Positions 28,901-36,737 of a DNA stretch of 36,737 nt are shown here, piece by piece; position 1 is the stretch's first letter; every line of letters starts with the position of its first letter. The DNA lies in contig JAKLEQ010000009.1 of NCBI GenBank assembly GCA_022711635.1, positions 1-36,737 on the forward strand, given 5' to 3'. Under the pieces are notes generated by a model. That model was not told the origin of the DNA. It did no database searches and saw nothing but the letters and a program-made list of their open reading frames with translations. This stretch comes from Methanoregula sp. (GTDB lineage Archaea > Halobacteriota > Methanomicrobia > Methanomicrobiales > Methanospirillaceae). Position numbers and translations under genes: made by a program.

Positions 28901-30961
28901 ATGTTCAGCCGCCTGGTCAGCCGCCTTTCTGATAAAACCACGATGATCCTGCTGCTCATGATCCTCGTCTTTGCCGGCTTAAGTATTATCTATACCTCGA
29001 ATATCACGACGGTTGCTCTCCACGACCAGACGCGGGAGGAACTGGGCGATATCGCAGCGACGATTGCCCTTGATGTCGACGGCGATGCTGTTGCCGCGAT
29101 CCGGCCCGGGGAGGAACAATCCCCGGCCTATGCCTCCCTCTCGGAAAACCTCCTCCGGTACAAGAAAGTCCTGCCCGAGATCGAGTCCATCTATATCATG
29201 CGCAGGGAGGGATCCAATGCGGTCTTTATCGTGGATCCGGACACCGGCAATGGAAAACGGACGGCCCGCATCGGCGAGATATACCCCTCCCCCTCCGGGG
29301 AGATGATGGCAGGGTTTACGGCAACATCGGTGGAGAAGGAGTTCGTCACCGACAGCTGGGGGACGACGCTCTCCGGCTACAGCCCGGTGCGGGATCGCAA
29401 CGGCACGGCGGTCGGCCTTATCGGCGTGGATATCAACCAGGAACTGGCCCTCACCCGGCAGAACATGATCTCGTGGACATCCTACATGATCATCTTCCTT
29501 GCCATCCTGATGGCGGTCTTCGGTGTTGTCGGCGTCGAGCAGATCCGGTCCCGGATGTTCCAGGACTTAACCGACCGGGAGAAACGGTTCCGCACGCTCT
29601 TCGAGTCCACCTATGATGCCATCCTGATTGTCCGTAGCGGGGTATTCACGGACTGCAACCGCGGAGCCCTCCGGCTTTTCCATTGCAGTAAGGAGGAGAT
29701 TGTCGGAAAAACGCCGTCAGACTTCTCGCCCCCGGCACAGCCGGACGGGAAAGACTCGAAGACGGCGATTGCGGAGTCGCTGGCACAAGCCCTGGGAGGG
29801 GAGTCGGCACTCTTCACCTGGAAATACCGGACACTGGACGGGATCGAGTTCGATGCAGAAGTGAGTTTCACCCGGATCGAGCTCGATGGAGAGATGGCCG
29901 TCCAGGCGATCATCCGGGACATCACCGAGCGCAAGCGGGCGGAGGATGCGCTCCGCCAGAGCGAGCAGAAGTACCGGATCCTCTCCGAGAGCTCGCCCGA
30001 CGCGATCTTCATCGTCGACGGCACGCACCGGATCCTGTACGCGAACATGCTCGCCTCCACGCTGCTCGGCGAAGGTCTGCGGGACGTGATCGGGGCGACC
30101 AAAGACAAGCCTGCGCAGAATCCGAATCAACAGGAACGGCCGGACCTTATTAAGAATGTCCTTGCGAACGGTCAGATCGTGAAGCGGGAGGATAAGCTGA
30201 CAAGCCGCAACGGCAAGGCTATCTGGCTGGACTCCACCTTCATGCCCCTGTACGAAGAAGGCGGGGGGGCATATGCAGTGCTCGGGGTCGCCCACGACAT
30301 CACCGACCGGAAGACTATGGAGACGCAGATCGAGTCCTCGCTCCGCGAGAAAGAGTATCTCTTAAAAGAGATCCACCACCGGGTCAAGAACAACCTGCAG
30401 GTCATCTCGAGCCTCCTCTCCATGCAGGCGCGGAAAACCGACGACCCGAAGGTCAAGGACACACTGACCGACAGCCAGAACCGGGTCAAGTCGATCGCGC
30501 TCGTGCACGAGAAGCTCTACCAGAGCAAGAGCCTCGACCGGATCGAGTACGGCGACTACCTGACCAAGATCGTGACGTACCTCCTGGAATCCTTCAACGT
30601 CAACCCGGCACAGGTCAGCTGGAAGGCGAACGCAAAGGATGTCTATGTCAGCATCGACCAGGCGGTGCCCTGCAGCCTGATCATCAACGAGATGATAACG
30701 AACTCCCTCAAGTATGCCTTTCCGCAGGGACGGAAAGGGGAGATCACCATCTCGTTTACCCTCGAAGATCACAATTACATTCTCGATTACCGGGACAACG
30801 GTGTCGGTGTCCCCCCTGGTGCGAACCTGGAGCGGGCAGGGTCGCTGGGCATGCAGCTGATCAACGGCCTCACCCGGCAGCTGGACGGGAAGCTCTCTAT
30901 CGAAACCGCAGCAGGCGTACACTATACGATTATATTCCCGCAGAAACAGAAAGGTGAATGA
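28901..30961 (+). CDS. Membrane sensor histidine kinase, dCache-like - PAS - PAS - HisKA_2
   Basis: 686 residues. TM1 (about 14-33) and TM2 (about 192-213) enclose an extracytoplasmic sensor (34-190) with the Cache-like ending V-R-D-R-N-G-T-A-V-G-L-I-G-V-D-I. Two PAS domains follow (about 225-345 and 355-470). The kinase core is HisKA_2 type: E-I-H-H493-R-V-K-N-N-L-Q-V-I-S-S-L-L with the phosphoacceptor His, then an ATPase with N box N596-E-M-I-T-N-S-L-K-Y-A and G1 D632-N-G-V-G-V. It overlaps the next gene's ribosome binding site; that gene codes a response regulator, so they form a cognate pair. The signal ligand is not predictable. Confidence 0.93.
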   Translation: MFSRLVSRLSDKTTMILLLMILVFAGLSIIYTSNITTVALHDQTREELGDIAATIALDVDGDAVAAIRPGEEQSPAYASLSENLLRYKKVLPEIESIYIMRREGSNAVFIVDPDTGNGKRTARIGEIYPSPSGEMMAGFTATSVEKEFVTDSWGTTLSGYSPVRDRNGTAVGLIGVDINQELALTRQNMISWTSYMIIFLAILMAVFGVVGVEQIRSRMFQDLTDREKRFRTLFESTYDAILIVRSGVFTDCNRGALRLFHCSKEEIVGKTPSDFSPPAQPDGKDSKTAIAESLAQALGGESALFTWKYRTLDGIEFDAEVSFTRIELDGEMAVQAIIRDITERKRAEDALRQSEQKYRILSESSPDAIFIVDGTHRILYANMLASTLLGEGLRDVIGATKDKPAQNPNQQERPDLIKNVLANGQIVKREDKLTSRNGKAIWLDSTFMPLYEEGGGAYAVLGVAHDITDRKTMETQIESSLREKEYLLKEIHHRVKNNLQVISSLLSMQARKTDDPKVKDTLTDSQNRVKSIALVHEKLYQSKSLDRIEYGDYLTKIVTYLLESFNVNPAQVSWKANAKDVYVSIDQAVPCSLIINEMITNSLKYAFPQGRKGEITISFTLEDHNYILDYRDNGVGVPPGANLERAGSLGMQLINGLTRQLDGKLSIETAAGVHYTIIFPQKQKGE

Positions 30962-30965
30962 TCGC

Positions 30966-32093
30966 ATGACAAAAGCGCGTATCCTCGTTGTTGAAGACGA
31001 ATTTATCACCGGTGCGGATATCCAGGCCAAACTGCAGGACATGGGATATGACGTGCCAATCGTTGCTGACACTGGCGAATATGCCGTGCAGGCAGCCGGT
31101 GAACAGATGCCGGACCTGGTGCTGATGGACATCCATCTCAAGGGGGCGATGACCGGCATCGAGGCCGCAGAGATCATCCACACCAAATACTCCCTTCCTG
31201 TGATCTTCCTGACCGGCCAGTCGGACGAGGCGACGGTCGAGAAGGCGAAGGTCTCGGCACCCTTCGGGTATCTGATCAAGCCGGTTGACGACCGGGCGCT
31301 CCGGATCACCATCAACATGGCCCTCTACAAGCACCAGATGGACGAGAGCATGAAGAAGCAGGAGCAGACGATTGTTGCCCTGCTGAACGCGACCACGGAC
31401 GCCCTCTTCATCATCGACCGGGACGGGAATATCCTTGCCCTGAACGAGACGCTTGCAAAGCGTGCGGGGAAGCGGATCACCGACCTCGTGAAGACCTCGT
31501 TCTTCGAACTGATCCCCGCAGGTGCGATCTCGACGAAACTGGCCGAGGAGATCCGGGCAGGTATGGGCGGGAAAGCCAACCGGTTCGAGGAAGAGGCAAA
31601 CGGCCGGTGGTTCGACAACAACATCTACCCGATCTCCGACAGCACCGGCACCGTTATGATGATCGCGATCTTCTCCAACGACATCACCGCGCGCAAGCGT
31701 GTCGAGATGGAGGTCCTCGAGGCCAACAAGAGCCTCCAGAAGGAGCGGGAGAACCTCCTCGTCATGTCGTCGGCGATCGACACCATGGACGATATCGTCG
31801 TCATCACCGATGCCATGGGCAACATCGAGTACGTCAATTCCGCGTTCACCAAGAAGATCGGGTATACCTCTCACGAGATGCTCCGGAAGCATATCGGGGA
31901 ACTGCAGAACCCCGGCGACCCGTACGCGATCGACAAGAACGCCTTCTTCGCGCGCAAGACCGATGCGTGGGCCGGCAACATCACCCTCAAGAACAAGTAC
32001 GGGCTGAAGATCAAGGCGTCGCTCCGGAGCACGCCGGTCATGAAGGACAACCGGCTGATCTGCCGGACCTTCGTCCTGCGCGAACAGTTGTAA
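30966..32093 (+). CDS. Response regulator REC-PAS-PAS without a DNA-binding domain
   Basis: 375 residues from the ATG at 30966, nine bases after GGTG; a GTG start at 30954 is possible but overlaps that site. The receiver domain (1-122) has the acidic pair E10-D11, phosphoacceptor D55, T83 and K105-P. Two PAS domains follow (about 133-245 and 265-372), the first ending N-D-I-T-A-R-K. No HTH, enzymatic or kinase output is present, so output is probably through protein contacts or the PAS domains acting as further sensors. It lies four bases after the partner kinase. Such proteins are frequent in methanogens with unclear output. Confidence 0.92.
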   Translation: MTKARILVVEDEFITGADIQAKLQDMGYDVPIVADTGEYAVQAAGEQMPDLVLMDIHLKGAMTGIEAAEIIHTKYSLPVIFLTGQSDEATVEKAKVSAPFGYLIKPVDDRALRITINMALYKHQMDESMKKQEQTIVALLNATTDALFIIDRDGNILALNETLAKRAGKRITDLVKTSFFELIPAGAISTKLAEEIRAGMGGKANRFEEEANGRWFDNNIYPISDSTGTVMMIAIFSNDITARKRVEMEVLEANKSLQKERENLLVMSSAIDTMDDIVVITDAMGNIEYVNSAFTKKIGYTSHEMLRKHIGELQNPGDPYAIDKNAFFARKTDAWAGNITLKNKYGLKIKASLRSTPVMKDNRLICRTFVLREQL

Positions 32094-32254: not shown

Positions 32255-32965
32255 TTACCCGGTTCCCTGCCCGGCGTGCTTCTTCTCGTTCAAGCCGTCG
32301 CTGACGATCTTCCCGTCCTTGAGCCGGACGATCCGGTGAAAATATTCCTTGTGCCAGTCCTCGTGCGAGACCATGATGATGGTCTGCTTCATCTCCTCGT
32401 TGATCTCCCGGAAGAGATCGAGCACCATCCGGGAGTTCTCCGAGTCGAGGTTGGCGCACGGCTCATCGGCAAAGAGGATGTCCGGCTTGTTCACCATCGC
32501 CCGGGCGATGGAGACCCGCTGCTGCTGGCCGCCGGAGAGTTCCCGGGGGAGGTGGTCTTTGCGGTCGCACAGGCCGATCTTCTGCAGGATGGAGAAACTG
32601 TCCTTTGTCACCTGCTCTTCCGTCCGGTCTTTCCGGAGCATCGCGGGCAGCGAGACGTTCTCCAGCACGGTAAGGTCGGGGACGAGTGCGTAGTCCTGGA
32701 AGACGTAGCCGAGCTTGTAGAGCCGGAACATCGTCTTCTCGTAGTCGGTCAGGGTCGAGACATCGAGGCCGTCGATGAGGATCCGGCCGGAGGTGGGCTG
32801 GTCGAGGAGCCCCAGCAGGTGCAGGAGCGTGGTCTTGCCACTCCCGCTTGCTCCCATAATGCCGAGGAACTCCCCCTTCTCGATCGTAAGATCCAGTCCG
32901 TCGAGGGCCTTCACCTCAACGGCTCCCATGCGGTAGGTCCTCCGCAGACCGGTAATCTCGATCAT
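32255..32965 (-). CDS. ABC transporter ATPase, LolD/MacB type
   Basis: 236 residues. Walker A is G38-A-S-G-S-G-K-T-T46, Q loop Q90, signature L143-S-G-G-Q-Q-Q-R150, Walker B I-L-F-A-D-E-P (163-169) and switch H201. The order and the pattern around it place it with the MacB/LolD/FtsE ATPases that power FtsX-like permeases in mechanotransmission rather than classic transport. The D-loop reads P-C-A-N-L-D where T-G-N-L-D is usual. It starts one base after the permease stop, so the two are coupled. The C-terminal tail is short and basic. Confidence 0.95.
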   Translation of the reverse strand: MIEITGLRRTYRMGAVEVKALDGLDLTIEKGEFLGIMGASGSGKTTLLHLLGLLDQPTSGRILIDGLDVSTLTDYEKTMFRLYKLGYVFQDYALVPDLTVLENVSLPAMLRKDRTEEQVTKDSFSILQKIGLCDRKDHLPRELSGGQQQRVSIARAMVNKPDILFADEPCANLDSENSRMVLDLFREINEEMKQTIIMVSHEDWHKEYFHRIVRLKDGKIVSDGLNEKKHAGQGTG

Positions 32966-32966
32966 A

Positions 32967-34181
32967 TCAGGCCCTCATTGCAGACTGGATGTCCTCGCGG
33001 GAGACCTGGTATGCGGGGACATACCCGGCGACGACTGACGCCATGAACAGGATCAGGGAGTTCGTAAGATAGTCAAGGGGGGTCAGATACAGGGTCGCCG
33101 ACCACTCGGGTGTCACGATGGGATTGACGGAAAGGTAGACCCCGATCAGCGCGGTGATGATGATCCCGAAGAAAATACCAAGGAGCGACATGATGACGAC
33201 CTGCAGGCCGTACGTGTGCATGATGACCTCCTTATCCACCCCGATCGCTTTCAGGATCCCGATCTGCCGGCGGCTGTTGAGGGTCTTGATGGTGATGACG
33301 ATGAAGAGCACGACCGTGGTGATGATGATCCCGACGAGAAGGGAGACCATGTTGATGATGGCGAAGCTCTGCATGACGCTCCCCATTGCCTTCTTGAGGA
33401 GGTCGCCGGTCGTCTGCACATATTCGGTGACGCCGTACTGCTGGAGCGTGTCCTTGATATACTTCTCGTCATAGCCGGGCTTCGCTTTGACCGTGATATA
33501 CTCGGCGTAATCGAGGGGCTTTCCTTCCACCAGCTCCATGTCGGACCAGGTCACAAAGACGTTGTTGTCCGTGGAGCTCCAGCCGGTGGAGTAAATCCCC
33601 TTCACCCGGTAGTCTTTGGTGTACCCGTTGCCGTACTCGATGGTGATCGCGTCCCCGACGCGGACCCCGCCGAGCGAGGCCTGGAACTCGTCCTCCTGCT
33701 TGATGGTTGCGTCTCCTGCAACCGGCTTTCCGATGATGACCTCCCCGGTGTCGTCCTCGCCAAGGTAGCTGCCGGTGACCATCTTCGAGTACAGGGGAGA
33801 GACGTATTTCTCGTCACCGGGCTTGATCGCCTTCACGGAGACCCCGAGGACCCGCTGGCGGTACTTGAGGGTCGCCCCCTTGGAGAAGTGGGGCGTTGCC
33901 CGCGCGACGCCGGGCATGCTGTTGATGCGGTCGAGCGTTGCGTCGAGGTCCGTCACGTACTGTTCGCCGGACTTGGGGGCGACGAGAACGTTGCCGACCT
34001 CGTAGTCCACGATCTGGGTGATGATCCCTTCCCCGATCCCGTTGAAGAGGCCGGGCAGGAAGACCATGTTCGTGAAACACATCGCAATGATGATGACGGT
34101 TAAGACCACGCTCGACCTGCTCCCCCGCTGGAGCGACCGCAGGGCAAGCAGGAACGCAACGCCTAACTCTTTCTTTCCCAT
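32967..34181 (-). CDS. FtsX/MacB-type ABC permease
   Basis: 404 residues. TM1 (about 25-48) is followed by a large extracytoplasmic MacB-like domain (50-270), then three C-terminal membrane segments: about 275-300, 325-350 and 370-395. The cytoplasmic loop R-R-Q-I-G-I-L-K-A-I-G-V after TM2 is the FtsX-family coupling motif that contacts the ATPase. The gene overlaps the preceding COG1361-like gene by 19 bases and precedes the ATPase by one base. With the secreted partner protein, this suggests a machine handling envelope proteins, lipids or small peptides in an archaeal single-membrane cell. Its substrate is not determined. Confidence 0.93.
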   Translation of the reverse strand: MGKKELGVAFLLALRSLQRGSRSSVVLTVIIIAMCFTNMVFLPGLFNGIGEGIITQIVDYEVGNVLVAPKSGEQYVTDLDATLDRINSMPGVARATPHFSKGATLKYRQRVLGVSVKAIKPGDEKYVSPLYSKMVTGSYLGEDDTGEVIIGKPVAGDATIKQEDEFQASLGGVRVGDAITIEYGNGYTKDYRVKGIYSTGWSSTDNNVFVTWSDMELVEGKPLDYAEYITVKAKPGYDEKYIKDTLQQYGVTEYVQTTGDLLKKAMGSVMQSFAIINMVSLLVGIIITTVVLFIVITIKTLNSRRQIGILKAIGVDKEVIMHTYGLQVVIMSLLGIFFGIIITALIGVYLSVNPIVTPEWSATLYLTPLDYLTNSLILFMASVVAGYVPAYQVSREDIQSAMRA

Positions 34182-35464
34182 GGGAATGTACCCTCGCTGT
34201 TTTTCCGGGGGAGGTACCAGTACCGGTACCCGGCGAACCCGACAATCGCGAGGATGACGAGGAGGAGGAGGATCGTTCCGGTAGTGTCCGTCGGCGGCAC
34301 CCGTAGGTTCATCTGCCGGGTCATCGCATGTTCGCCCATGTCGTCGGTGTAGTGGATCGTGAGGTTGTAGGGATGGTTGCCTGCTTCCGCCCCTTCGAGG
34401 AGGAAGATGACAGGGGCATCGTTGCCCGGCTTGATCTTGCCGATGAAGGCCTCTTTTACCCCTTCTGCCGGCAGGTCGATCGTTGCCGAGACCTGTTTTG
34501 CCTCACCGGTGCCGGTGTTCTCGATCCGGATCGTGAGGTCGAAGGGTGTCCCTTCGGTCAGCCGGGCTGGGCTTGTGTCGACCGTAACGAAGCCGAGTTC
34601 CGCTTTGCCCTTCACGTAGACCTCGACAACCTCGTCCTGGTGCTTGATGCTCCCGTCCGGGAGCTGGTAGTCAAAGCCGAGGTTGATCTTCTGCAGGCCG
34701 GTCGGGGCAGTACGGTCGGTCAGGAAATCGATCGTGACGTTCTTCGATCCCCCGCCCTCGATATCGTGCAGGGTGAGCGTATTGGACCCCGCAACCCCCA
34801 TCGAACTCGAGCTGGTGTTGACCGCCACCACAACCTGCCCGGCACGGAGGATACCCTCGTTCGTTATCTTCAGGGAAACCGAGAAGTCGTCCCCGGGATT
34901 GACGGTCTCGGGAAGACTCTTCCCAACGACGAGAGTCGGGGCGCGGAGGACCTGGTTCTGTGCGTTCACGTTGACGAGCACCGGGTAGCGGACGCTCTTG
35001 CCGCCATTGATGTCCACCCAGACCTCCGGGAAGTAGATCCCTTCTTTTGCCGGGGCCTGGATCGCAAACGTCACGGTCGATGCCTGCCCGGGGCCGAGCG
35101 ACCCGAACCTGCGGTACGATTCCGAGAGGCTCGTAACCCCGTTCTCTTCGAGGACGATCGCGTCGATCTGGACCGGGATATCGGTATTCCGGATGGTCTC
35201 GATGCCGCCACCGGTCGTGCTCCCGGTCGATTCCTGGACCGTTGCCGTTGTTGCGGTGCTGCGGATGATGACGGAGATTGTCCCGTAATCGCCGGGCGCA
35301 AGGACGGCCGGCGTGACCGTGTAGCTCTCGACAAAGACCGTCGGCTCGTCCTCTGCGGCCGCAACCGGTGCAGCGAGGACGAAAAGCCCGAGCAGGATAC
35401 CTGCCATGATGCTTGTCCAGATGGTTCTTCTGTTTTCTTTCCTTGTATGGTAAGTGACGTTCAT
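34163..35464 (-). CDS. Secreted, membrane-anchored CARDB-like protein (COG1361)
   Basis: 433 residues. A signal peptide spans about 12-37 (hydrophobic I-M-A-G-I-L-L-G-L-F-V-L-A-A, cleavage near A-A-A-E). The body is built of immunoglobulin-like beta domains (CARDB/NEW3 type): repeated L-x-P-G and I-x-N-T/E-G-x-x-x-A patterns, such as L-K-I-T-N-E-G-I-L-R-A-G and I-R-I-E-N-T-G-T-G-E-A. A C-terminal TM (about 403-421) is followed by a short basic tail, so the domains face outside. ATGA overlap with the upstream gene and 19-base overlap with the permease tie it to the ABC system, probably as its extracytoplasmic partner. Confidence 0.85.
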   Translation of the reverse strand: MNVTYHTRKENRRTIWTSIMAGILLGLFVLAAPVAAAEDEPTVFVESYTVTPAVLAPGDYGTISVIIRSTATTATVQESTGSTTGGGIETIRNTDIPVQIDAIVLEENGVTSLSESYRRFGSLGPGQASTVTFAIQAPAKEGIYFPEVWVDINGGKSVRYPVLVNVNAQNQVLRAPTLVVGKSLPETVNPGDDFSVSLKITNEGILRAGQVVVAVNTSSSSMGVAGSNTLTLHDIEGGGSKNVTIDFLTDRTAPTGLQKINLGFDYQLPDGSIKHQDEVVEVYVKGKAELGFVTVDTSPARLTEGTPFDLTIRIENTGTGEAKQVSATIDLPAEGVKEAFIGKIKPGNDAPVIFLLEGAEAGNHPYNLTIHYTDDMGEHAMTRQMNLRVPPTDTTGTILLLLVILAIVGFAGYRYWYLPRKNSEGTFPWERKS

Positions 35465-36309
35465 ACTGCTATCAGCGTGATGGAACCAAGACCCTGGTCC
35501 AGGGTGATCTCATTGACTTCCCTCGATGCGGAAAATCCCGGCATGACATAGGTATGATCGGACTCGATAAATCCGGGCCCGGTGATATCTCCGATACCCT
35601 GATCCACCCGGATCCTCGTATTACTCCCCCGCGGGATAGAGAGGGTGAGGTCGCCGACACCGTTTGCGATCGCGGCATCGAACCGTCCGCCCTGGTAACC
35701 GCCAAGATCGATGACGGTGTCTCCGGCACCGGTATCGACGGAAAGGGTTTCGAGGTTGAGCGTGCCAAGCATGAGGGTGTTCTCTCCTGCCCCGAGGTTC
35801 ACAGCGAGGCGGATCGGGATCTTCCCGTTCAGGCTGACCTCCCAGGTGTCGGCGTGGTGGTTTATCAACGACTCCTTCTTACGGTGTTCTCCCCTGTCGG
35901 TCAGGGTTGCGGATATCCGGGAATTGTTCGTCTCCAGAACGAGATCCGGCTGCCATGCGGGGTCCTGCGGGAAGTATGTCACCTCCATGAGTGCGGAGTC
36001 TGGCGCATTTCCCGTGAGCGTGAGATCCCCGGCCCCCAGCAGGATCGTCACGTCCCCAGCCTTCGCTCCATCCAGCGGGATCGTCGTCGTGCTGGGGGTG
36101 AGGTTGGTGCTGGGCCGCAGGAGCGTGACGCCATGATCGGCCGAGCGGGGGAATCCCTCGGTGAGCGCAAGGATGCCGCACCCGATGGCAAACGATACGA
36201 TTGTGATTGCGATCAGCCAGAGGACGACCCGGGTCATGTTGAGACGGGAAAGATACCCGCTCAGGGTCTCAACGGAGAAGACCCGCTGTTCCTTTCCACC
36301 GTCAGTCAT
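35461..36309 (-). CDS. Membrane-anchored beta-repeat protein, LiaF/toast-rack-like
   Basis: 282 residues from the ATG at 36309, six bases after GGAGAG; longer frames upstream belong to the preceding gene. One membrane segment lies at about 27-49. The outer part is a run of short strands with repeated L-G-A-G-D/E, I-A-N-G-V-G-D-L and Q-G-I-G-D-I motifs, the pattern of DUF4097/LiaF-like beta solenoids found in bacterial envelope-stress proteins. N-glycosylation sequons are present (for example N-N-S near 147). ATGA overlaps join it to both the DUF1700-like gene upstream and the CARDB-like gene downstream. Role: likely envelope sensing or scaffold, inferred from fold and context. Confidence 0.78.
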   Translation of the reverse strand: MTDGGKEQRVFSVETLSGYLSRLNMTRVVLWLIAITIVSFAIGCGILALTEGFPRSADHGVTLLRPSTNLTPSTTTIPLDGAKAGDVTILLGAGDLTLTGNAPDSALMEVTYFPQDPAWQPDLVLETNNSRISATLTDRGEHRKKESLINHHADTWEVSLNGKIPIRLAVNLGAGENTLMLGTLNLETLSVDTGAGDTVIDLGGYQGGRFDAAIANGVGDLTLSIPRGSNTRIRVDQGIGDITGPGFIESDHTYVMPGFSASREVNEITLDQGLGSITLIAV

Positions 36310-36737
36310 GGTATACTCTCCGTACCGGTGATAATGCTGATGTTCCACCGGAGGTATCGCAGGGCGATACGGTAGAAGAACCGTGCAAGGTAGAAGTCCC
36401 CGATGACGAGCAGGAGCCCGAGCGTCGTGATCCCGATGGAGAGGAACACGACGGAGAACGGCGACTGCCAGACCGCAACGGCGGTAATCCCCGTAACCTG
36501 GAGGAGCGCAAGTACGAATGCAACCGGCCCGAAGATCGCACATACAACCCCGACAAGCGCGATGACGAACAGGATTACGACGAGAAGGATGAACGGGAAT
36601 ACGACAAAGACCAGGTTGAAGAGGCCGAGACCGAGCGTTGCGACGACCGCATGCAGGAGGTTTTTGCAGCTCTTAACATCTTCCGCTTTTTTGACGAGAT
36701 GGGTTGCCCGGATCTCCCGTGCAAGATCCTCGGGGGA
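36306..36737 (-). CDS. DUF1700-like membrane protein, C-terminal 143 residues; start outside window
   Basis: The open frame enters at the right edge (36737) and ends at 36306, so the N-terminus is missing. Visible: a charged amphipathic stretch S-P-E-D-L-A-R-E-I-R-A, then three or four hydrophobic segments (about residues 28-50, 52-74, 88-111 and the following short one) and a basic end R-Y-L-R-W-N-I-S. This matches the HAAS/DUF1700 type, often paired with PadR regulators and toast-rack proteins in bacteria. A PadR gene could lie beyond the edge. Its stop overlaps the next start as ATGA. Confidence 0.7.
   Translation of the reverse strand, partial: SPEDLAREIRATHLVKKAEDVKSCKNLLHAVVATLGLGLFNLVFVVFPFILLVVILFVIALVGVVCAIFGPVAFVLALLQVTGITAVAVWQSPFSVVFLSIGITTLGLLLVIGDFYLARFFYRIALRYLRWNISIITGTESIP

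Follow-up and report, generated by a model that had tools for sequence, protein, structure and literature searches.

A putative PadR-HAAS-toast-rack switch adjoins a CARDB-FtsX/MacB-LolD-like ABC block in operons of the Methanomicrobiales

In 20 of 20 operon loci from the archaeal order Methanomicrobiales, genes for a PadR regulator, a HAAS (DUF1700) membrane protein and a toast-rack protein precede, always in this order, genes for a CARDB protein, an FtsX/MacB permease and a LolD-like ATPase. The window, by which we mean the whole stretch of 36,737 nucleotides analysed (contig C179:1-36737), carries the last five of these genes. Judging from gene order, domains, folds, a palindrome and its location, and an order-wide core with exchangeable regulators, we put the chances at about even that this is a self-regulated envelope-stress operon, in which a palindrome-bound PadR and HAAS/toast-rack sensing would control an induced ABC machine.

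The window's operon comprises five minus-strand open reading frames running from 36737 to 32255, in agreement with the initial annotation. The first (36306..36737) encodes the C-terminal 143 residues of a HAAS/DUF1700-family membrane protein, 60-68% identical to the orthologues in loci L019, L020 and L021; the contig end cuts this gene, and approximately 54 N-terminal residues lie beyond it. The second (35461..36309; Pfam Toast_rack_N, 2.4e-17) encodes a toast-rack protein with one N-terminal transmembrane (TM) helix followed by a β-solenoid. The third (34163..35464; Pfam CARDB, 1.3e-14) encodes a CARDB protein in which the TM and charge pattern and a structural model indicate a signal peptide, three Ig-like domains, a C-terminal TM helix and a short basic tail. 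An FtsX/MacB-type permease of the type VII ABC class (32967..34181; Pfam FtsX, 9.7e-15, and MacB_PCD, 1.7e-14) and a LolD-like ABC ATPase (32255..32965; Pfam ABC_tran, 2.4e-34) complete the set. Each of these Pfam matches exceeds its cut-off. Every junction overlaps or abuts, with ATGA overlaps at HAAS/toast rack and toast rack/CARDB, a 19-nt overlap at CARDB/permease and a 1-nt gap at permease/ATPase. The domain matches and gene order bear out the view that envelope-stress-type upstream genes and a MacB/Lol-type machine share one archaeal operon.

The relatives show the same architecture, which excludes the possibility that the pairing is confined to this genome. The PadR-HAAS overlap is 14 nt in all 20 operon loci, and the CARDB-permease overlap is 19, 4 or 1 nt. 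Two of the 20 are truncated (in one the sequence stops ahead of the ATPase gene, in the other within it), and L128 shows two overlapping matches from one toast-rack frame. Conservation of this order together with its junction overlaps is more than chance, and the overlapping or abutting genes and the six-gene order confirm that the operon is real. The sequence does not contradict joint transcription of the upstream genes, as they are packed in every locus and the one conserved palindrome lies before padR. Counting against a one-operon model is the toast rack-CARDB gap, which reaches about 420 nt in L144 and L151 and about 64-98 nt in seven other operon loci, and could hold a second promoter. 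A scan of the operon for sigma-70 promoters and terminators, which is not informative for archaea, returned zero of each. The locus sets overlap (L127 is L020, L139 is L021 and L152 is L024), so these samples are not independent; nor is the 199-genome sample used below independent of the 61-genome sample.

The PadR regulator anticipated upstream of the window's genes is present in six of six uncut relatives and in all 20 operon loci, where it is a standalone minimal gene adjoining HAAS (PF03551, 9.8e-23, above the curated cut-off). This 108-residue form accompanies HAAS in 56 of 59 loci; the PadR match is absent in L182 and L185, which start at a contig edge, and in L167, which does not. L185, from Methanofollis, is counted among the loci even though the contig start cuts its HAAS gene. 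The window's HAAS fragment (36737-36306) gave nothing convincing in Pfam or NCBIfam when its 143 C-terminal residues were searched, since the contig stops short of the HAAS domain itself. Complete orthologues in L019, L020, L021 and L024 match PF22564 HAAS (5.7e-11 to 8.1e-13), and L140 also reaches the curated cut-off. The GxP motif of HAAS helix 3 reads GSP, GDP or GNP in seven of eight full-length alignment rows and GEA in L021; the window's copy begins at the SP of this motif. In locus L022, HAAS and toast rack form a single fused gene that has a padR and a palindrome of its own and no pump-block match nearby; this fusion ties the two proteins functionally.

Upstream of padR lies what we propose, from its sequence and placement, as a newly identified candidate operator. 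A 19-bp palindrome, TAYCTTG-N5-YAAGRTA, is located 85-138 nt before padR in all 20 operon loci. Among 199 genomes of the order there are 25 exact copies, compared with three matches for a control with the reversed pattern, and 20 of the 25 lie 389-500 nt upstream of a HAAS gene, a distance that leaves room for padR. The remaining five exact sites lie away from HAAS and include L186 (genome G046) and L190 (genome G025, contig 12); the L190 site falls within the first part of an unrelated small open reading frame and looks like chance. Outside the 20 operons, the half-site TACCTTGYA precedes padR in 26 of 36 loci against 0.1 expected, with 3 of 39 non-operon loci excluded because they had no PadR match or less than 200 nt of upstream sequence. 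The motif ATGT-N-ACAT, which we take to be the PadR-type site consensus, was also tried and rejected: it shows no excess at spacers 4-11, and its count at spacers 12 and 13 (4 of 20 versus 1.2-1.3 expected) equals the shuffle maximum. Neither padR nor the palindrome gave a match in the window's own genome; the completeness of this genome is 77% and its contig stops at the operon, so we treat the absence as missing data rather than support, and would place the window's padR and operator beyond the contig end.

The toast-rack protein had been labelled LiaF/toast-rack-like, and the second half of that label stands. Its model (pLDDT 81.5) matches PDB 4qrk with a TM score of 0.91 over the target and an rmsd of 2.1, and this solenoid fold together with the Toast_rack_N match places it in the Toastrack family. 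The LiaF half is not borne out, as both LiaF C-terminal models score below their cut-offs (PF09922, 14.8 of 29; NF040535, 13.5 of 57). N-glycosylation sequons were considered as a topology marker, and seven toast-rack sequences hold 20 against 13.2 expected (p 0.034). However, the outer domains of CARDB (0.74-fold) and of the permease (0.16-fold) hold no excess of sequons, which disqualifies them as a marker here. As to topology, the flanking charges are ambiguous, and the fused L022 form argues for a cytoplasmic location.

The CARDB protein, previously described as secreted, combines its signal peptide with a C-terminal TM helix and is instead predicted to be membrane-anchored, lying outside with a cytoplasmic tail. 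Across 14 orthologues its membrane-proximal domain (residues 301-360) is the most conserved part (0.82-0.87 versus 0.30-0.75 elsewhere), as expected of a permease-docking part, and the protein is likely the permease's outer partner. A fold search with its model turned up no more than generic Ig-like folds at low TM scores, and its profile matched no solved chain. By hydropathy, the permease has one TM segment, a large outer domain and further TM segments; its nearest solved chains are LolF (2.5e-8), LolE and then MacB. The FtsX and MacB_PCD domains with an ABC ATPase place the pair among type VII ABC systems, and the ATPase sequence, read directly, contains what we take to be the Walker A motif, LSGGQ signature, Walker B motif and H-loop. 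Neither protein reaches the cut-off of a named equivalog: the ATPase scores 228.8 bits against LolD TIGR02211 (cut-off 307.75), the permease 60.9 of 362.45 against LolCE, and the two 35.0 (permease) and 193.1 (ATPase) of 966 against MacB NF007826. The FtsX equivalog cut-off is likewise not reached by the operon proteins, and the MacA family is absent from their matches.

In the circuit that we infer, covering repression, HAAS-PadR contact, signal, subunit numbers, transport direction and substrate, PadR would bind the promoter-proximal 19-bp palindrome and keep all six genes repressed. HAAS, itself membrane-bound and assisted by the toast rack as sensor or docking platform, would detect membrane disturbance, whereupon the HAAS domain would release or reconfigure PadR. 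The induced machine would comprise a pair of permeases, a pair of ATPases and, on the outer side, the anchored CARDB protein with its three domains; powered by cytoplasmic ATP, it would move its outer domains and extract an amphiphilic or surface-anchored substrate or pass it towards the S-layer. Once the stress is over, PadR would close the operon again. Surface-protein release, as first suggested, is one among several possible outputs.

The pump block extends well beyond these operons. The CARDB-permease-ATPase core occurs at 64 loci in 61 genomes of the order; two of these loci lost parts at contig ends. HAAS and toast rack adjoin it at seven loci and are not seen at 57, a few of which (such as L112, L121 and L124) end soon upstream. 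By gene neighbourhood the switch is a portable cassette, since the pump block is order-wide, mostly without the switch, and in many cases has a divergent TetR in its place. Regulators of the PadR and TetR types typically respond to ligands, and a drug or toxin efflux operon would accommodate both: PadR, or a neighbouring TetR, would bind a toxic amphiphile as LmrR-type PadRs do, the MacB/LolF-like pump would expel it, and HAAS and toast rack would be accessory. A divergent TetR does lie beside the same pump block in 13 of 64 loci, including L019, which has the cassette as well (L110, with a TetR match downstream only, is labelled "none"), and 5 of the 20 operons hold both TetR and PadR. We nevertheless consider efflux somewhat unlikely, given the near-constant pairing of the minimal PadR with HAAS and the rank of LolF and LolE ahead of MacB.

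Phylogeny bears on whether the operon merely carries two independent functions on one transcript. In that reading, chance recombination would have brought a phage-shock-like pair for membrane maintenance next to a housekeeping Lol-like exporter, and descent would have preserved the arrangement. The PadR-HAAS pairs of all 20 operons fall in one clade (99), so a single joining could suffice. The tree is mostly bacterial, which suggests transfer from bacteria to archaea; it is also unrooted, and no direction is claimed. In the permease tree, by contrast, which took 62 of the 64 loci (two cut at contig ends were omitted), the cassette is found in three separate parts, and four cassette-label changes are needed, at least three of them forced by starred branches. 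Pump and switch are therefore not strictly co-inherited, and this scatter, with gene overlaps conserved in the Methanoregula-like and the Methanospirillum group alike, makes independent functions unlikely. It is more improbable still that the toast rack serves the ABC machine as a structural component, with HAAS-PadR only setting dosage. HAAS and CARDB do flank the toast-rack gene in each of the 20 operons, and bacterial toast-rack-ABC operons without HAAS are known (PMC11237479), but most pump loci have no adjoining toast rack, and L022 has the fused cassette without a pump. We regard it as very improbable that the window's copy arose as a chimera during assembly: HAAS occurs in only one of eight sampled genomes of the genus (the window's own), the CARDB N-terminal part and ATPase resemble the genus while the CARDB C-terminal part and permease resemble Methanoregula-like G025, and the operon sits at a contig end, elsewhere than the TetR-type copy of congeners G004 and G005, yet the remaining contig sequence that was compared (12.3 to about 32.1 kb) best matches G004, and the operon's frames are intact with the usual junctions. 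Even with a chimeric copy here, the operon is real in 20 loci.

The proposed envelope-stress operon has published bacterial counterparts. PMC11237479 describes the HAAS-PadR dyad and its pairing with Toastrack, bacterial fusions of HAAS with FtsX/MacB domains, and Toastrack operons that include an ABC ATPase and permease, so the initial claim of novelty holds for this exact combination and not for those parts. In Listeria, the lltR-DUF1700-DUF4097 operon rises 100-150-fold when LltR, the PadR protein that it encodes, is disabled (PMC6624303). The bacterial dyad, including Listeria lltR-lmo0600-lmo0601, shares the PadR, HAAS/DUF1700, toast-rack order and is a proposed stress switch (PMC11237479 and PMC6624303); here, in the Methanomicrobiales, a CARDB-FtsX/MacB-LolD block comes after the cassette and a conserved palindrome lies before padR. 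The bacterial systems in PMC11237479 that likewise couple a MacB-type permease, or an ABC transporter, to HAAS or toast rack either fuse HAAS to the permease or use a GntR regulator and a DUF2884 lipoprotein, whereas here HAAS and toast rack have genes of their own, accompanied by PadR and a CARDB partner. LolCDE/LolDF, MacAB and FtsEX belong to the same ATPase and permease families, with one TM segment before a large outer domain; among the operon proteins there is no MacA or LolA, and an anchored three-Ig CARDB protein is present instead. A search of the open-licence literature returned no report of the palindrome operator or of the archaeal operon.

To our knowledge, little is known of archaeal envelope-stress signalling. 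We tentatively propose that a bacterial-type switch (PadR, HAAS, toast rack and operator) may have been plugged into an archaeal Lol/MacB-like machine, replacing TetR or acting in series with it, to give a circuit that senses damage, frees the repressor and drives the exporter through a DNA site readable across bacteria and archaea. If so, the HAAS-PadR switch, so far a gene-neighbourhood prediction, would gain a candidate operator together with a local target and an evident output. Surface-damage sensing in an archaeon would become testable, and the derepressing signal would point to the substrate of the order-wide CARDB-FtsX/MacB-LolD machine.

The right end of contig C179, one of 189 contigs in a 1.86-Mb genome that is 77% complete, carries five minus-strand genes (36737 to 32255) packed head-to-tail. 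As the initial annotation recognized, their junctions overlap or abut (in order: ATGA, ATGA, a 19-nt overlap, and a 1-nt gap). The first, truncated where the contig stops, encodes a HAAS/DUF1700-type membrane protein; toast-rack, CARDB, FtsX/MacB permease, and ABC ATPase genes follow in that order. Pfam confirms the last four; the HAAS fragment was identified via its orthologs, which are 193–197 residues at full length and carry the PF22564 HAAS domain within about the first 60. The window gene has no Pfam match of its own because the missing portion is this N-terminal region.

An upstream PadR gene, which the initial annotation suggested seeking, is present in relatives: padR lies directly ahead of the HAAS gene in all six with intact upstream DNA (L019, L020, L021, L024, L025, and L026). 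Scanning a HAAS alignment against 84,980 species genomes, with two short peptide patterns that distant relatives can escape, yielded 59 loci. The order PadR, HAAS, toast rack, CARDB, permease, ATPase is shared by 20/20 Methanoregula-like and Methanospirillum-like loci of Methanomicrobiales (one interrupted before the ATPase, one within it), so the pairing extends beyond the window’s genome. In all 20, padR runs 14 nt into the HAAS gene, and the majority of the remaining junctions overlap or abut. Two loci, L144 and L151, have an additional stretch of about 420 nt separating toast rack and CARDB, where L026 (6786–7091) encodes a 101-residue protein with a weak, below-cut-off DUF202 match. The remaining 39 loci come from Bacillota, Actinomycetota, Atribacterota, Undinarchaeales, Thermoplasmata, and others, plus one truncated Methanofollis contig. 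None has a same-strand CARDB–permease–ATPase block 3′ of HAAS. Three (L146, L179, and L181) have a same-strand ABC ATPase match within 5 kb, with no permease or CARDB match beside it. In L181, from Paenibacillus, the ATPase follows a PadR–HAAS pair at 854 nt, perhaps another HAAS–ABC coupling.

A 19-bp inverted repeat, TAYCTTG-N5-YAAGRTA, precedes padR in 20/20 of these operons, 85–138 nt from the start codon; the L026 locus carries it with one mismatch. Across 199 genomes of the order, the exact palindrome occurs at 25 sites in 23 genomes, compared with three matches for a reversed-pattern control; by site and gene lists, 20 of the 25 lie 389–500 nt upstream of a HAAS gene, a spacing that leaves room for padR. 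HAAS was found in 31 of the 199 genomes, 23 of them in the window’s family. Twenty of these 23 carry the exact site, the others being the window’s own (cut), G036 (one mismatch), and G116, whose HAAS is part of a longer and probably fused reading frame. The eight HAAS genomes of other families all lack the exact site. Because the palindrome is nearly single-copy per genome, it points to local PadR self-control in Methanomicrobiales. Outside the 20 operons, the half-site TACCTTGYA lies upstream of padR in 26 of 36 loci having padR and 200 nt of upstream DNA, against 0.1 expected from doublet-based resampling (maximum 2), so the PadR that partners HAAS seems to recognize the same half-site in bacteria and archaea alike. 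PadR–HAAS pairs from other families of the order (L068, L069, and L070) lack toast-rack or pump matches; L068 and L069 have a degenerate palindrome ahead of padR, and L070 carries a pair of PadR genes, with a 406-residue protein whose N-terminus resembles HAAS encoded after the second.

The pump block (CARDB, permease, and ATPase) is more widespread than the PadR–HAAS–toast-rack cassette. Among all 64 full-length CARDB matches in 61 relatives (E up to 3.8e-51), a permease follows in 63 and an ATPase in 62, the exceptions being contig ends. Seven of the 64 have HAAS and toast-rack genes ahead of CARDB; for a few of the remaining 57, the upstream sequence ends after a short distance. Thirteen have an adjacent divergent TetR, among them L019, which carries the cassette as well, and five of the 20 cassette operons retain the TetR. 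By eye, a TTACC...GGTAA-like repeat, which may be a TetR operator, occurs near tetR with and without the cassette (L071–L075, L019, L129, L130, L132, and others). On a permease tree of 62 loci, the cassette label requires four changes, at least three forced by well-supported branches and all confined to one 19-row clade, while in a PadR–HAAS tree of 56 loci the 20 operon pairs form a single clade (99). The most economical interpretation is a single joining event in Methanomicrobiales, then loss or exchange; the cassette is portable and placed on an older pump machine. L022 has a cassette without a pump, its HAAS fused to the toast rack. The window’s genome has a second, diverged CARDB–permease–ATPase block (L018, contig 16, 6–2587; 40% CARDB and 45% permease identity), with no HAAS or toast-rack match on its short contig.

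The window copy is a mosaic, probably formed by recombination. By DNA identity in 200-column blocks, CARDB-N after the signal peptide (61–80%) and the ATPase (80–91%) are nearest to the TetR-type congener L072, and CARDB-C and the permease to Methanoregula-like L020 (76–86%). HAAS or toast rack occurs in one of eight sampled genomes of the genus, the window’s own, and the tested part of the remaining contig (12.3 to about 32.1 kb) best matches congener G004. An assembly chimera, concerning this copy alone, is a possible alternative to recombination. Convergent to the operon, 28901–32093 holds two genes, which from sequence we take to be PAS sensor-kinase-like and receiver-PAS-like; the block is conserved in G004, where the homologous pump operon is on a different contig.

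The toast-rack model (pLDDT 81.5, 18 sequences) matches 4qrk with a TM score of 0.91 by target length. Flank charges leave its side of the membrane ambiguous, and a sequon test failed in its controls. The L022 fusion, which places the toast rack after the HAAS membrane region and a basic stretch with no further transmembrane segment, argues for a cytoplasmic location, as proposed in PMC11237479. CARDB, initially annotated as secreted, is instead predicted to be membrane-anchored: its three Ig-like domains lie between a signal peptide and a C-terminal transmembrane helix, with 2–5 basic residues after the helix. Among proteins of solved structure, the permease's closest sequence matches are LolF, LolE, and MacB, but it scores far below every equivalog cut-off.

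The components and two of the pairings are already published for bacteria, which narrows the earlier claim of novelty to the archaeal six-gene operon, the exchange of cassette and TetR on a core that spans the order, and the conserved putative operator, for none of which a search of open-licence full texts found a report. We infer a relay in which PadR would repress the operon by binding the palindrome, membrane disturbance would act through HAAS and toast rack to relieve repression, and the ABC machine would then work with CARDB as its outer partner to move an amphiphilic or surface-anchored substrate. The same HAAS-to-PadR relay is proposed for bacteria in PMC11237479. In Listeria, according to PMC6624303, disabling the PadR protein LltR raises its own lltR-DUF1700-DUF4097 operon 100–150-fold and mildly induces liaIH and a putative ABC transporter.
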